A DNA stretch of 64,000 nucleotides from Yoonia sp. (GTDB lineage: Bacteria > Pseudomonadota > Alphaproteobacteria > Rhodobacterales > Rhodobacteraceae). The position numbers and the translations under genes are program-made. How positions within the stretch are numbered: position 1 is the first letter of the stretch; every line of letters begins with the position of its first letter. The notes beneath the pieces are model-generated. The model worked only from the letters and a program-made list of their open reading frames with translations. It was not told the DNA's origin and did no database searches. Of the stretch, positions 56-41,613 are shown piece by piece. The stretch spans positions 1 to 64,000 of the forward strand of contig NZ_JAFMHJ010000006.1 of assembly GCF_017854565.1 (NCBI RefSeq). Direction: 5' to 3'.

Positions 56-253
56 ATCCCAACCCCAAAGTGGCAACATTTTGCGCTGCCCTTTGGCTCA
101 CTTTTACTCTGCCGTTGACAATAGCGGAGCTGGTTGGGATTTCTATTGAAGGCTCTTAACTTCCACCGAGATTGCACCTCAGATCGTCTGATCGGCGGAC
201 ACAAGATTAGTTTCGAACCTAGTTGGCGCATAGATCGCAATACGTGCACACAC

Positions 254-279
254 AAAAAAGGGGCCCCCGAAGGGACCCC
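254..279 (-). terminator. Intrinsic terminator, minus strand (copy 1)
   Basis: Read on the minus strand the sequence is GGGGTCCC, loop TTCG, GGGGCCCC, then six T. The stem has eight pairs with one G-U, a tetraloop and a T-run, which is the textbook form of a rho-independent terminator. It closes the candidate RNA of repeat copy 1. Confidence 0.85.
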
Positions 280-388
280 ATTAGTTTTGCTGATCGGGCT
301 CGTGATTATACCGCTCGTGTTTTTATGCCTGTTGGCCCGATCTGCACCGAAGGCGAGCGCACCCGCCTCCGGATCCTTATTTCTAACG
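254..388 (-). ncRNA. Candidate structured RNA, copy 1
   Basis: On the minus strand an outer stem (383-388 with 279-284) encloses a short hairpin (343-347 with 357-361) and a stem 335-342 with 292-299, and a terminator follows. Compared with copy 2, one pair in the inner stem changes from G-C to A-T, keeping the pairing. Two other differences give G-U pairs on the minus strand but A-C mismatches on the plus strand. This points to a minus-strand RNA of about 130 bases. I recognise no known RNA family and see no clear promoter. Confidence 0.45.
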
Positions 389-662
389 TGTTTCACCCGA
401 TCGGGAGAAACTTTGCCCCCAGATGGGAAAACCTTTGCCCAAATTGGGAAGAACTATGCCCAGAGGGACACCTCGGTGTAGACCCGAGCATCACGCAACG
501 CGCAGCTAGCCCATCTTTTTGTCGATGAATGAAAAAAGATGGTGCGCCAAGAGGGAAAAGGATTGAACCCCCAGTTCAATTCCCTCAGCGCAGAAGAGCT
601 GAAAACTCTTTTCGATGCCCTTGAGGCCTGGGAACGCCATCTCGCACAGTTAGACTTACAGC

Positions 663-1001
663 CAATCTCAAGAACTCAAGTAACAGATTCCAACGCTTGT
701 CTTCAGTTTTGCGGCTTTGAGAATAGGTTGAGAATGGCTGGCAAGGAGCACAACCTGCCAATACTCTGACTTTCGCGCTCCCAAACCATTCATTCAGATC
801 AGATGGGGTCACCTTTGACACATCGCGACAGACGAACTCGGCGGAGGTGTTTGTCTCCAGCGCATACTTACAGCTCGGATCTAGGTCCACTCCTGCGGCA
901 ATCTTGCAACCTGCCGTTTGCATGCCGTAAGCTAGACCGCCCGCACCGCAGAACAGGTCAACAACGACTGGTGCTTCGACTACGGGGTTTGATTTTGACA
1001 T
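663..1001 (-). pseudogene. Truncated DNA (cytosine-5)-methyltransferase, N-terminal fragment
   Basis: Starting at the ATG at 1001 the product begins MSKSNPVVEAPVVVDLFCGAGG. It has the S-adenosylmethionine-binding motif I (DLFCGAGG) and motif IV with the catalytic Cys (GCAPCQPFS), followed by a DKRWNLLLEF helix. These are hallmarks of C5 DNA methyltransferases such as Dcm-like or restriction-modification enzymes. Similarity stops at about position 663; the reading frame continues with unrelated sequence to 585. Only ~113 of an expected 300-450 residues remain, so the target-recognition domain and motifs VI-X are gone. No endonuclease gene is visible. The fragment lies between the two direct repeats, so it was probably part of a mobile or recombined segment. 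It should be inactive. Confidence 0.85.
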
Positions 1002-1107
1002 ATTGCCGTCAATTATTTTCATGCCACTACATATAGCTGTCTTCCGGCTGGATTGCCAAGAGTCAGAGTAGCCTGTTTGGAGAGACATCACTCTAAATGA
1101 TTGGTCG

Positions 1108-1133
1108 AAAAAAGGGGCCCCCGAAGGGACCCC
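1108..1133 (-). terminator. Intrinsic terminator, minus strand (copy 2, downstream of nrdJ)
   Basis: It has the same hairpin as copy 1: GGGGTCCC-TTCG-GGGGCCCC followed by six T on the minus strand, here with a perfectly conserved stem. It is the first strong terminator after the nrdJ stop codon and so probably ends the nrdJ transcript as well as any RNA started within the repeat. Confidence 0.85.
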
Positions 1134-1239
1134 GTTAGTTTGCTGATCAGGCTCGTGATTATACCGCTCGTCGTTTGTTGCCTGTGGCCTGATCTGCGCC
1201 GAGAGCGAGCGCACCCGCCCCGGATCCTTATTTCTAACG
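1108..1239 (-). ncRNA. Candidate structured RNA, copy 2
   Basis: On the minus strand CGTTAG (1239-1234) pairs with CTAACG (1138-1133) as the outer stem. TGCGC/GCGCA forms a small hairpin, and the 8-bp stem 1187-1194 with 1145-1152 is perfect. In the last stem the A1149-T1190 pair replaces G296-C338 of copy 1, a compensatory change. The terminator at 1108-1133 closes it. It could also act simply as the 3' end of nrdJ mRNA. The strand assignment rests on the G-U versus A-C argument and on the terminator. Confidence 0.45.
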
Positions 1240-1338
1240 TCTTTCACCCGATCGGGAGAAACTTTGCCCCCAGATGGGAAAACCTTTGCCCAAATTGGGA
1301 AGAACTATGCCCAGAGGGACAAAATCCTCCTCAATTTC

Positions 1339-4300
1339 TCAGCTGCACCCGCTTGTCCCGCCACAGGTGTTGCACTTCATGCAGGTGCCGTTGCGCACCA
1401 GCGTATAGTTGCCGCATTCGCCGCAGGGATCGCCCTCGTAGCCCTGCATCTTGGCCTTGTCGCGGACCGTGATGCCGACGGTGCCGGTGCTGAGTGCGGT
1501 TATTGTCCGCACCTCCGGGACGAGTGTCTGAAGGGCCGCAATCGCATCCGTACCGGTGCGCAGCGCCGTGGCACCCATGCCCCCCTGCAGCACCACCAGT
1601 TCCTGTGGCATCCGCTTGCGCAGATATCCTGTCGATGAAATCTGCTTGAGCACTTCGAGTGACCGTGACGCAGCAGATTGGCTTGGTGTTTGAACGTTCG
1701 ATACGCCTTCCTTTTCGCCGCGGCCGATATCATCGAACGACGCGCCTTCCGGTTTCACATGGGCCAAGTCAGTCCGGTCCAGATAGGACACCGCCAATTC
1801 CCGGAAGATATAGTCAAGGATCGAGGTCGCATTCTTGATGCTATCATTGCCTTGGACCATGCCGGCGGGTTCGAATTTGGTGAATGTAAACGCATCCACG
1901 AACTCTTCCAGCGGCACGCCGTATTGCAGACCGACAGACACTGCGATGGCAAAGTTGTTCATCATCGCGCGAAAGCCGGCACCCTCTTTGTGCATATCAA
2001 TAAAGATTTCACCCAGTTGGCCATCCTGATATTCGCCCGTGCGCAGATACACTTTGTGCCCACCCACAATCGCCTTCTGGGTATAACCCTTGCGGCGTTG
2101 CGGCATCTTTTCACGCTCACGGTTGCGCACTTCCTGGATGATAATCCGCTCGACGATCTTTTCTGCCAGAACGGCGGCCTTCGCGTGATGATTGCCGCTT
2201 TCCAGAATTTCCAGCGCCTCGTCGTCATCTTCAACCAACGCGGACGCAAGTGGCTGCGACAGCTTCGATCCATCGCGGTACAGCGCGTTGGCCTTCACAC
2301 CCAGTGACCAGGACAGCTCGTAGGCTTTCTGGCAATCTTCGATGGTCGCATCATTGGGCATGTTGATCGTTTTTGAAATCGCGCCCGAAATGAACGACTG
2401 CGCCGCAGCCATCATGTAGATATGGCTATCAACGCTCAGATAACGCTTGCCCGTTTTGCCGCAGGGATTGGCGCAATCAAAGACGCTATAGTGCTTTTCA
2501 TTCAGGAACGGTGCACCTTCCAGCGTCATCGTCCCGCAGACGTGATCGTTCGCAGCCTCGATGTCCTTCTTGGTATAGCCAAGATGGCGCAGCAGATCAA
2601 AGGTTGGATCGTTCAGCTTATCAACGGGAATACCCAGTGTCTTGGTGCAGAAATCCTCGCCCAGCGTCCACTGGTTGAAAACAAAGCGGATATCGAAGGC
2701 CGACTTGAGCGACCCTTCGATCTTGTCCAGCTCGGCCTGTCCAAAACCATGCCCAATCAGGCTGGTGTGGTTGATCGCAGGCGCCTGCCCCATCGACGCG
2801 TGACCAACGGCATACGCGATGATCTCCTCGACCTGCGCAGAGCCGTAGCCGAGCTTTTCAAGCGCGGCCGGCACCGACTGGTTGATGATCTTGAAGTAAC
2901 CGCCACCCGCCAGCTTTTTGAATTTCACCAAGGCAAAGTCAGGCTCAATTCCGGTGGTATCACAGTCCATGACCAGACCGATCGTGCCGGTCGGCGCGAT
3001 CACCGAGACCTGCGCATTGCGGTAGCCGTGCTTTTCGCCCAGTTCCAGCGCCTCGTCCCAGGCAGTTATTGCCAGTTCGACCAGACGTGCGTCGGGGCAA
3101 TTGCCATGGTCCAGCGGCACGGGCTTTACATCCAGTTTGTCATAGCCTGTGGACTTGCCCAGGGCTGCCTGCCGATGGTTCTTGATGACCCGCAACATGT
3201 GCTTGCTGTTCTTGGCATAGCCGGGGAACGCGCCCAGTTCGCCTGCCATTTCAGCAGACGTCGCATAGGACACGCCGGTCATGATCGCCGTCAGGGCGGC
3301 CCCCATCGCACGCCCTTCGTCGCTGTCATAGCCAAAGCCCATGTTCATCAGCAGACCACCGATGTTGGCATAGCCCAGCCCCAGCGTACGGAAGTCATAG
3401 GACCGCTGCGCGATTTCCTTGGACGGGAACTGTGCCATCATCACGGAAATTTCCAACGTCACCGTCCACAAACGAGTCGCATGGATGTAATCTTCGACTT
3501 GAAACACGCCGTCTGCATAAAACTTCAGCAGGTTCATCGAGGCGAGGTTACACGCTGTGTCGTCCAGAAACATGTACTCGGAACACGGGTTCGAACCGCG
3601 GATTTCACCGTCTTCGGGGCATGTGTGCCATGCGTTGACTGTGTCATGGTACTGGATGCCCGGATCAGCACAGGCCCATGCGGCATGGCCCACCTGCTCC
3701 CACAGATCGCGGGCCTTGATGATGCGGGCCACTTCTCCATTCCTGCGATTGATCAGCTTCCAGTCGGCATCATCTTCGACCGCCTTGAGAAACGCATCGG
3801 TGACCCGGATCGAGTTGTTGGAGTTCTGCCCGGACACGCTCGAATAGGCTTCAGAATCCCAATCCGTGTCATAGGTCGGGAATTCAATGCTGGTGTGACC
3901 CTGCTTGGCATAGTCAAGAACGCGCTTGATATAGGTCTCGGGGATCGCGGACCGCTTTGCGTCCTTGACCGCAGACGCCAAAGTCGCATTGGTCTTGGGA
4001 TCATATGCAGCGACATCTTCGCCATCCCATGATTTGATCGCCGCAAAGATCGCGTTCAGGTAACGCTCGTGCATCTTGGACCCCGCCACGATGGACGCTA
4101 CCTTTTGCTCCTCGATGACCTTCCAGTTAATGAAATCCTCTACATCGGGGTGATCTGCATCGACGATCACCATCTTGGCGGCCCGGCGTGTGGTCCCGCC
4201 CGATTTGATCGCCCCTGCCGCACGATCGCCAATCTTAAGGAACCCCATCAGGCCCGATGACTTGCCACCACCCGAAAGCGCCTCACCTTCGCCGCGCAGT

Positions 4301-4986
4301 GACGAAAAGTTTGTGCCCGTGCCAGAGCCGTATTTGAACAGGCGTGCTTCGCGGACCCACAGGTCCATGATGCCGCCTTCATTGACCAGATCATCGCTGA
4401 CCGATTGGATGAAGCAGGCGTGCGGCTGCGGATGCTCGTAGGATGATGTCGATTTAGTCAAGACGCCCGACTGGTAATCAACGTAATAATGCCCCTGCGC
4501 AGGACCATCAATGCCGTAGGCCCAATGCAGACCTGTATTGAACCACTGCGGGCTGTTTGGCGCGGCACGTTGCGTGGCCAGCATATACCGCATTTCGTCG
4601 AAATACGCGCTGGCATCTTCCTCGGACGAGAAATAGCCGCCCTTCCAGCCCCAATAGGTCCACGCACCTGCCAGACGGTCAAACACCTGCTTGGCCGAGG
4701 TTTCACCGCCAAAGGTCGCCCCTTTGGCTGGAACCGACCGCCACAGGAACGCAGGAACGTCCTTTTCTTTTACCTTTTTCACTTCCGAAGGCACGCCGGC
4801 CTTGCGAAAATACTTTTGCGCGATGACATCGGATGCAACCTGGCTCCAACCGCCCGGAATTTCACAATCGTCCAGTTTGAAAACAATCGTCCCGTCCGGA
4901 TTACGAATCTCCGACGTGGTCGTCTTGAACTTCAGCGCCGCATAAGCGTCTTGCCCGACTGTTGTGAAATTGCGTTCGATTTTCAT
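1339..4986 (-). CDS. nrdJ: Adenosylcobalamin-dependent (class II) ribonucleoside-diphosphate reductase
   Basis: The 1215-residue product reduces ribonucleotides to deoxyribonucleotides in the cytosol using a B12-generated thiyl radical, so DNA precursor synthesis here needs no oxygen but needs cobalamin. Visible signatures are NSPQWFNTG near 144-152, Cys191 in PHACFIQS, the glycine-rich [20 protein letters not shown] near 223-242, NPCSE at 466-470 (radical Cys and catalytic Glu) and a second Cys at 479. The last ~30 residues form a Cys-rich zinc-ribbon-like tail ([18 protein letters not shown]) typical of the long alphaproteobacterial NrdJ. The length fits the family. The 3' flank is repeat copy 2 with its terminator; the 5' flank is long and contains a DnaA box. 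No nrdAB or nrdDG is seen in this window. Confidence 0.97.
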
Positions 4987-6805: not shown

Positions 6806-6882
6806 TGGTCGGGGCGGAGAGATTCGAACTCCCGACCCTCTGTTCCCAAAACAGATGCGCTACCAGGCTGCGCTACGCCCCG
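6806..6882 (-). tRNA. tRNA-Pro (anticodon UGG)
   Basis: Read on the minus strand the 77-base gene has a 7-bp acceptor stem CGGGGCG/CGCCCCG, a D arm with AGCGCAGCCTGGTAGCGC, an anticodon arm TCTGT-TTTGGGA-ACAGA with anticodon TGG, a T arm with GTTCGAATC and an encoded 3' CCA. All arms pair fully. UGG can read all four proline codons. It lies 44 bases from the DUF192 gene in the same direction. Confidence 0.98.
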
Positions 6883-41531: not shown

Positions 41532-41613
41532 CGAAGGCGATGATGCGTAAGCGCGCATCGCTTTCACCTCCCTGTTGGACTTCGCCGGGCCTTAGTGCCC
41601 GGCACTTTTTTCT
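41532..41613 (+). ncRNA. Candidate small RNA with anti-Shine-Dalgarno stretch, upstream of purL
   Basis: The 305-base gap before purL has no convincing gene but shows small-RNA architecture on the plus strand. There is a promoter-like pair, a hairpin GATGCG-TAAGCG-CGCATC near 41544-41561, an unpaired UUUCACCUCCCUGUUGGAC stretch, and a terminator. CACCUCC is complementary to ribosome-binding sites. The layout recalls the alphaproteobacterial CcsR ('cuckoo') RNAs with their CCUCCUCCC loops, though the sequence is not identical to what I remember. It could instead be a leader that attenuates purL. Confidence 0.55.
41584..41613 (+). terminator. Intrinsic terminator of the small RNA
   Basis: GCCGGGC, loop CTTAGT, GCCCGGC, then AC and six T. 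The stem has seven perfect GC-rich pairs. It lies 65 bases before purL on the same strand and does not follow any coding sequence, which is the main reason to suspect a small RNA or a leader transcript. Confidence 0.9.

Follow-up and report, generated by a model that had tools for sequence, protein, structure and literature searches.

A structured RNA known as the nrdJ motif (Rfam/Weinberg) is reportedly located upstream of nrdJ in other bacteria. According to passages of PMC8625941 and PMC6238624, several small RNAs (sRNAs) of Rhodobacter sphaeroides, namely SorX, CcsR1-4, PcrX and UdsA-H, are derived from 3' untranslated regions (3'-UTRs), and RNase E releases 3'-UTR RNAs in Rhodobacter, SorX among them. 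StsR of R. sphaeroides is described in passages of PMC8307010 as a trans-acting sRNA of 72 nt, and PMC4809877 has a table of R. pomeroyi RNAs, both antisense and known ones, with the coordinates in the supplement. The passages of Brewer et al. 2021 (PMC8632094) report several structured motifs that are confined to Rhodobacterales, for instance HRC-8-4, which is mainly found between ccoNOQP and ccoGHIS. Here we show by computation that a repeated sequence in a Yoonia genome contains a folded RNA, encoded on the nrdJ strand and ending in a terminator, which nearly always lies behind nrdJ and is free-standing in some species.

The RNA matched no Rfam family, in line with a preceding sequence-only reading of this DNA. 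At the curated thresholds of Rfam 15, the window (the whole stretch of 64,000 nt that was analyzed) gave only a tRNA (6809-6882 on the minus strand, 65.5 bits) and SorX, both outside the repeat, and 10 homologous loci gave no match. The best sub-threshold match of the repeat, to the L2 leader (22.1 of 37.8 bits), includes the terminator stem. SorX (RF02784), a known 3'-UTR sRNA of this group, matches the window at 41540-41610 (+) only, with 52.1 bits versus a cut-off of 46.6, and was thus set aside as an identity for the repeat. The same applies to 6S RNA (RF00013): the repeat was not matched by its model, and the own genome has another 6S candidate at G000:C78, which scored 40.5 bits, below the cut-off of 46.4. 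In the open-access literature, taken without supplements and including passages of PMC8307010, PMC8625941, PMC5107571, PMC2864571, PMC6238624, PMC4809877 and PMC8632094, we found no RNA behind nrdJ in this group. The RNA family is new in these two respects, i.e. with regard to Rfam 15 and to the open-access literature; the supplementary motif list of PMC8632094 may include it.

The repeat and its two copies in the window

The window carries two direct repeats, as the sequence-only reading had pointed out: positions 369-470 repeat 1220-1321 at 99% identity, and further repeats join 255-332 to 1108-1185 and 333-367 to 1185-1219. Each repeat is a composite of a hairpin-rich 5' part of about 93 nt and an RNA core of about 120 nt that ends in a terminator (Table 1). 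The core consists of a hairpin (P1) with a UGCG loop, a long stem (P2) whose inner module hardly varies, a linker and an intrinsic terminator. The location of copy 2 behind nrdJ, the truncated state of the methyltransferase gene beyond it and the strong minus-strand terminators at the ends of both copies had all been described correctly. An open reading frame of 76 codons at 539-769 (+), also between the copies, has no Pfam match.

Table 1. Positions of the RNA copies, their parts and the neighbouring genes in the window.
Feature	Position	Strand	Support
RNA core, copy 2 (P1, P2, linker, terminator)	1107..1228	-	Covariance model R1, 115.8 bits; included in alignment A1
RNA core, copy 1	253..377	-	R1, 113.5 bits; included in A1
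P1 hairpin of copy 2, UGCG loop	1199..1223	-	RNAalifold and pair counts
P2 stem of copy 2 with inner module (GGCC.CAGGC...GAGCGGU...GAGCC)	1142..1198	-	RNAalifold and pair counts; module identity 0.967 over 100 sequences
P1 hairpin of copy 1	347..372	-	A1 and RNAalifold
P2 stem of copy 1	288..346	-	A1 and RNAalifold
Intrinsic terminator of copy 2	1108..1133 (stem 1114-1133, 8 pairs, then T6)	-	
Intrinsic terminator of copy 1	254..279 (stem 260-279, 8 pairs, then T6)	-	
Hairpin-rich 5' part, copy 2; lineage-specific spacer between nrdJ and core	1229..1321	-	Direct repeat
Hairpin-rich 5' part, copy 1	378..470	-	Direct repeat
nrdJ, class II (adenosylcobalamin-dependent) ribonucleotide reductase; gene that usually precedes the RNA	1339..4986	-	Pfam PF02867, PF08471, PF12637; conserved neighbour
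Decayed gene for a C-5 cytosine DNA methyltransferase between the copies, reduced to an N-terminal fragment	660..965	-	PF00145, profile positions 3-98 of 324

The 5' part is not the conserved element, since most BLAST matches in congeners begin near base 100 of the query, and it was matched along with the core in only three of them (G034, G021 and G013). By eye, the 5' part comprises 3-4 units of about 21-22 bp with the form CTTTGCCC-n-GGGAAAA that begin at a TGTCCC boundary, and TGTCCC marks the start of the 5' part in five aligned sequences. These units may be hairpins or protein-binding repeats. In one congener (G010:C22:43824-43891), BLAST found part of the 5' repeat units at a site that yielded no RNA core.

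The number of core substitutions is 12 between copies 1 and 2, but only 4 between copy 2 and its relative L005, and 6 between copy 1 and each of L006 and L007, whereas the 5' parts of the two copies hardly differ. Because the cores are nearer to those of relatives than to each other and the 5' part is near-identical, we regard the pair in the window as a mosaic and not as a recent duplication in tandem. The remnant of a methyltransferase gene that separates the copies suggests a collapsed restriction-modification island. Two diverged RNA copies are arranged in tandem behind nrdJ in another genome (G009), and in G614 (L261 and L262) a second copy lies directly behind genes for TniB and TniQ (Pfam), at a distance of about 36.7 kb from the copy at nrdJ, provided that the contig is circular; a Tn7/Tn5053-like island in the nrdJ tail is possible in this case. 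These three instances give the impression that nrdJ tails are a landing place for islands.

Fold, covariation and coding strand of the RNA

When folded singly on the minus strand, the two copies fold alike (-85.8 kcal/mol with a z-score of -2.44 for copy 1, and -80.6 kcal/mol with a z-score of -1.70 for copy 2, versus shuffles), which alone is modest evidence for a structured RNA. In 36 sequences that had been collected by BLAST with the window (alignment A1), RNAalifold recovered P1, P2, the inner pairs and part of the terminator unguided, and changes on both sides were present at 15 of the 29 pairs. A larger alignment fitted to the covariance model (A2), which holds 100 sequences from 98 hand-chosen sources and leaves out part of the loci found by the pattern scan described below, showed both-sided changes at 23 of 32 pairs with 95.9% of cells paired, and no shuffle attained the observed score; the terminator helix was paired in 96.2% of cells.

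For the scripted tree-based null, the individual pair 36-83 and column identity, these 100 sequences were realigned with MAFFT. In 400 simulations under the tree-based null, the paired cells reached at most 94.7% in P1 and 95.2% in P2, as compared to observed values of 97.4% and 98.3%. The 74 both-sided changes in P2 surpass the null maximum of 61; the 35 in P1 lie inside the null range (maximum 42), and it is only the paired percentage that exceeds the null in this hairpin. At E<0.05, four column pairs pass the tree null, namely 36-83 in P2, two pairs of the terminator (100-111 and 101-110) and 33-85, an internal-loop swap and no Watson-Crick pair. Pair 36-83 (A-U 63, U-A 28, G-C 4, C-G 3, G-U 2), which lies above all 150 simulations, is the only one of the P1 and P2 pairs to be individually significant under this null. 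The 17 pairs of P1 and P2 contain 171 G-U cells versus 15 A-C cells (81 versus 15 without the one consensus G-U pair), and because G-U far exceeds A-C the RNA is assigned to the nrdJ strand. We conclude that this locus encodes a structured RNA on the strand of nrdJ.

The idea that selection acts on a structured minus-strand RNA is thus borne out by its presence in 166 of 248 genera, by pairing above the tree null and by the excess of G-U over A-C, and the proposed search by BLAST and covariance model did retrieve many homologues. Some details were revised. The compensatory change between the copies, G296-C338 versus A1149-T1190, is correct and is located in P2, but it is part of the variation between species, the copies not being recent duplicates. 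Of two further differences that had been read as G-U pairs on the minus strand, the one in the small hairpin is a pair of P1; the other was placed in an outer stem, GUUAG/CUAAC, which draws on sequence 5' of P1, outside the core, that is not conserved family-wide, and is therefore unsupported.

Conservation is distributed unevenly over the core. Mean column identity over the 100 sequences reaches 0.967 in the inner module and is lower in the P1 pairs (0.90), in the outer part of P2 (0.85) and in the terminator (P3, 0.75). The A-rich loop (0.77) and loop 66-74 (0.62) are variable, and the UGCG loop is among the most conserved columns. It should be noted that the pattern loci in A2 were found via a motif inside the inner module, which inflates the module identity in that part; nearly the same invariant inner-module bases are seen in A1, which was assembled with no motif. 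A pairing of the loop sequence CAGGC with GCCUG was dismissed, since one suggestive triple change (L008) was accompanied by no covariation signal under the tree null. One assembly holds a divergent copy (L036, G020:C115) behind another nrdJ 3' end, in which the P1 stem is largely different and the GUGCGC loop is kept; this copy may be a contamination.

Distribution, linkage to nrdJ and free-standing copies

In large searches with the covariance model R1, which was built from the 36 sequences of A1, the stricter filters used can miss weak copies, and matches were obtained in 166 of the 248 genera of the host family Rhodobacteraceae (148 of 215 among the good genomes). This family includes roseobacters and relatives of Rhodobacter. 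Among the family genomes listed there was a single match per genome, the own genome excepted. In a sample of the order the RNA was present in 118 of 149 genomes, all of the same family among the matches listed, and in a sample of the class four of 289 genomes matched, all of them from this family and one of them the own genome. BLAST with copy 2 gave matches in 32 of 35 congeners; the match in G010 covers the 5' part only, with no core in an unfiltered model search of that locus, and G002 has a clear copy by the model though BLAST missed it. A scan of named genomes with a pattern of the conserved motif found at least 120 loci, and 119 of the 120 listed were assigned to Rhodobacteraceae, Paracoccaceae, Rhodobacterales members or unclassified alphaproteobacteria. 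The exception, in Enterobacter, sits in an apparent coding sequence and was taken as a chance match. Viral contigs searched with the exact pattern, and phages and plasmids searched by BLAST with one homologue, yielded no match. A 27-nt BLAST match in a member of another family (G042, E 5.5e-4) was discarded, as the model did not match there.

The RNA lies on the sense strand 3' of nrdJ at all 29 congener loci, at 29 of 30 loci from the search of the family, where only G000:C50 deviates, and in 124 of the 125 genera that were compared as well as 9 of 9 further genera. The same holds for 111 of the 120 pattern matches listed; the other nine comprise seven loci at most 470 nt from the edge of a stretch, one unlinked copy (L128) and the chance match. 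The distance from the nrdJ stop codon to the RNA ranges from -1 to 691 nt (median 101.5), and 30 of 124 starts are within 30 nt of the stop. In 161 upstream sequences, most of them nrdJ-linked, we found no promoter signal at a fixed distance (information at most 0.09 bit between -90 and -11). This lack of a fixed-distance promoter, together with the 30 starts close to the stop codon, indicates that the RNA is co-transcribed with nrdJ. Read-through from nrdJ, which the sequence-only reading had counted against an RNA in its own right, is probably the usual way in which the RNA is made, and hence does not refute it. The first open reading frames downstream fall into 102 clusters among 148, with a strand ratio of 79:69, a few loci overlapping so that the independent cases are slightly fewer. 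Since the downstream genes are unrelated and the upstream sequences are without signal, the usual form is a 3'-UTR RNA. At 59 loci, pairing of the RNA with the start region of nrdJ (mean z -0.33) was no better than with a control stretch (-0.26), and autoregulation by this route was rejected.

The association is not obligatory for nrdJ, which was found in 241 of the 248 genera sampled; about a third of the genera have nrdJ without a detected RNA, and nrdJ can therefore do without it. Among 18 hand-picked nrdJ 3' regions from such genera, two contain weak relatives (30.4 and 20.0 bits) and the other 16 gave nothing above 13.8 bits. These regions would reflect loss or divergence of the RNA. In one genome a weak second R1 match of 38.1 bits (L284, G671:C11:353844-353965) is located directly behind a FixP/CcoP gene that is preceded by FixO; by eye it is missing the inner module, and its position is the one reported for HRC-8-4.

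Some copies are located away from nrdJ. In the genus of G069, 19 of 22 genomes have the RNA, with nrdJ before it in the same stretch in 16 of them. In the three genomes G069, G678 and G674, the sole R1 match adjoins a divergent gene for an EamA transporter (identified by Pfam in G069 and by tblastn in the other two), with enolase behind the EamA gene in the two longer stretches. Their nrdJ genes are elsewhere, either at a distance (112 kb and 180 kb) or on different contigs (the G674 assembly is 84% complete and its nrdJ is cut by contig ends), and no R1 match above 9.9 bits was present around them. Upstream of the three free copies, the sequence (A/G)TGACG-N18-TAnnnT is common by eye. Scans for promoters detected nothing sigma-70-like on the RNA strand before the free copies L215 and L278, or before L003, the free copy of the own assembly. 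As the three species are congeners, their free copies may descend from one relocation event. That a sole copy has been relocated away from nrdJ speaks for an RNA whose action does not depend on the nrdJ transcript. A contig of a Roseovarius metagenome-assembled genome (L128) also has an RNA copy with no nrdJ in the preceding 3.9 kb.

The own assembly contains a third, core-only copy at G000:C50:59984-60104 (L003, L037), which represents the other within-genus subtype and is located behind a terminator. It has no nrdJ beside it, but enolase, an EamA gene and a gene of the FUR family are close by. Since a contig end is also near, a strain mixture in the assembly is possible. The idea of a second conserved site near enolase, which came from this copy and that of G069, was abandoned because, among 30 enolase loci, only G069's own matched clearly; locus L247 (16.4 bits, E 0.042) looks like the end of a gene with a terminator, and locus L227, from the own genome, ends inside its RNA copy.

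Proposed role and comparison with described RNAs

As in 3'-UTR-derived sRNAs, the RNA lies sense 3' of a coding gene and ends in an intrinsic terminator. With moderate confidence, and judging from sequence comparison, we favour the view that it is a trans-acting sRNA of this kind, about 120 nt long, which would normally form the 3' end of the nrdJ mRNA. The nrdJ transcript would be cut, for which RNase E in Rhodobacter offers a parallel (passages of PMC6238624), to leave a stable RNA with the P1 hairpin at one end and the terminator at the other. A partner, either RNA or protein, would be contacted by the GAAACU linker and the nearly invariant module within P2, and production from nrdJ would couple the level of the RNA to ribonucleotide reductase synthesis.

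We consider it rather unlikely that the RNA does nothing in trans and is a cis-acting 3'-end element whose fold and terminator shield the nrdJ mRNA from 3' exonucleases or set its half-life. The almost constant sense linkage to nrdJ and the consistently paired terminator helix fit such an element, which would also tolerate the variable spacer. It is difficult to reconcile with the three congeneric species, possibly representing one event, that keep their sole detected copy away from nrdJ, and with the unlinked Roseovarius copy; moreover, a plain stabilizer needs no inner module with an identity so far above that of the surrounding helices.

Another reading, to which we assign an equally limited probability, is a trans-acting RNA that is not antisense and whose inner module binds a nucleotide or cobalamin as an aptamer, or an RNA-binding protein, so that the RNA would serve as a sensor or decoy. 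It forms a subset of the favoured trans-acting reading and is told apart by the kind of partner. The concentration of the most conserved columns in the inner module and the UGCG loop, with other loops varying, agrees with this proposal, but the terminator stems vary in sequence, and there is thus no sign of a terminator switch. In its widest version, which we likewise put forward tentatively, the RNA would act in trans family-wide with the invariant module as aptamer or protein core; as the tail of nrdJ it would report reductase output and the nucleotide or cobalamin state, and in part of one genus it would have become an independent gene.

That the repeat is the footprint or integration site of a mobile element and the RNA incidental appears very improbable. 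The decayed methyltransferase between the window copies, the TniB and TniQ genes directly before the second copy of G614 and the shared TGTCCC start of the 5' part are suggestive of mobility, yet most genera sampled have one nrdJ-linked copy with pairing above the tree null, the viral, phage and plasmid searches were negative, and the arrangement in the window would be accounted for by islands that landed next to a host RNA. A riboswitch or attenuator for the downstream gene, though compatible with a compact fold directly followed by a terminator, is already contradicted by the unrelated genes on both strands and can be given next to no credence, there being no constant sense gene downstream.

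A conserved RNA that is tied to nrdJ in the majority of the genera sampled and has no match in Rfam 15 points to unrecognized regulation linking the supply of DNA precursors to something else, and since 3'-UTR and free-standing forms both exist, cis and trans roles are separable by simple genetics. The nrdJ RNA motif is also associated with this gene, but from an upstream position, and no such Rfam 15 match was obtained here. 6S RNA resembles the nrdJ-tail RNA in its size class and long imperfect stem. HRC-8-4 and the other Rhodobacterales motifs in the passages of PMC8632094 share with it a structured, taxon-restricted nature and a terminator stem; unlike HRC-8-4, the present RNA follows nrdJ, and the term 'nrd' is absent from the main text of that paper. 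StsR likewise comes from related bacteria and, as portrayed in the passages of PMC8307010, has a different length (72 nt). The 3'-UTR-derived sRNAs of R. sphaeroides have other host genes, the main texts of PMC8625941 and PMC6238624 being without 'nrd' or 'ribonucleotide', but as these sources present them they have in common with the nrdJ-tail RNA that they are encoded on the sense strand behind a coding gene.
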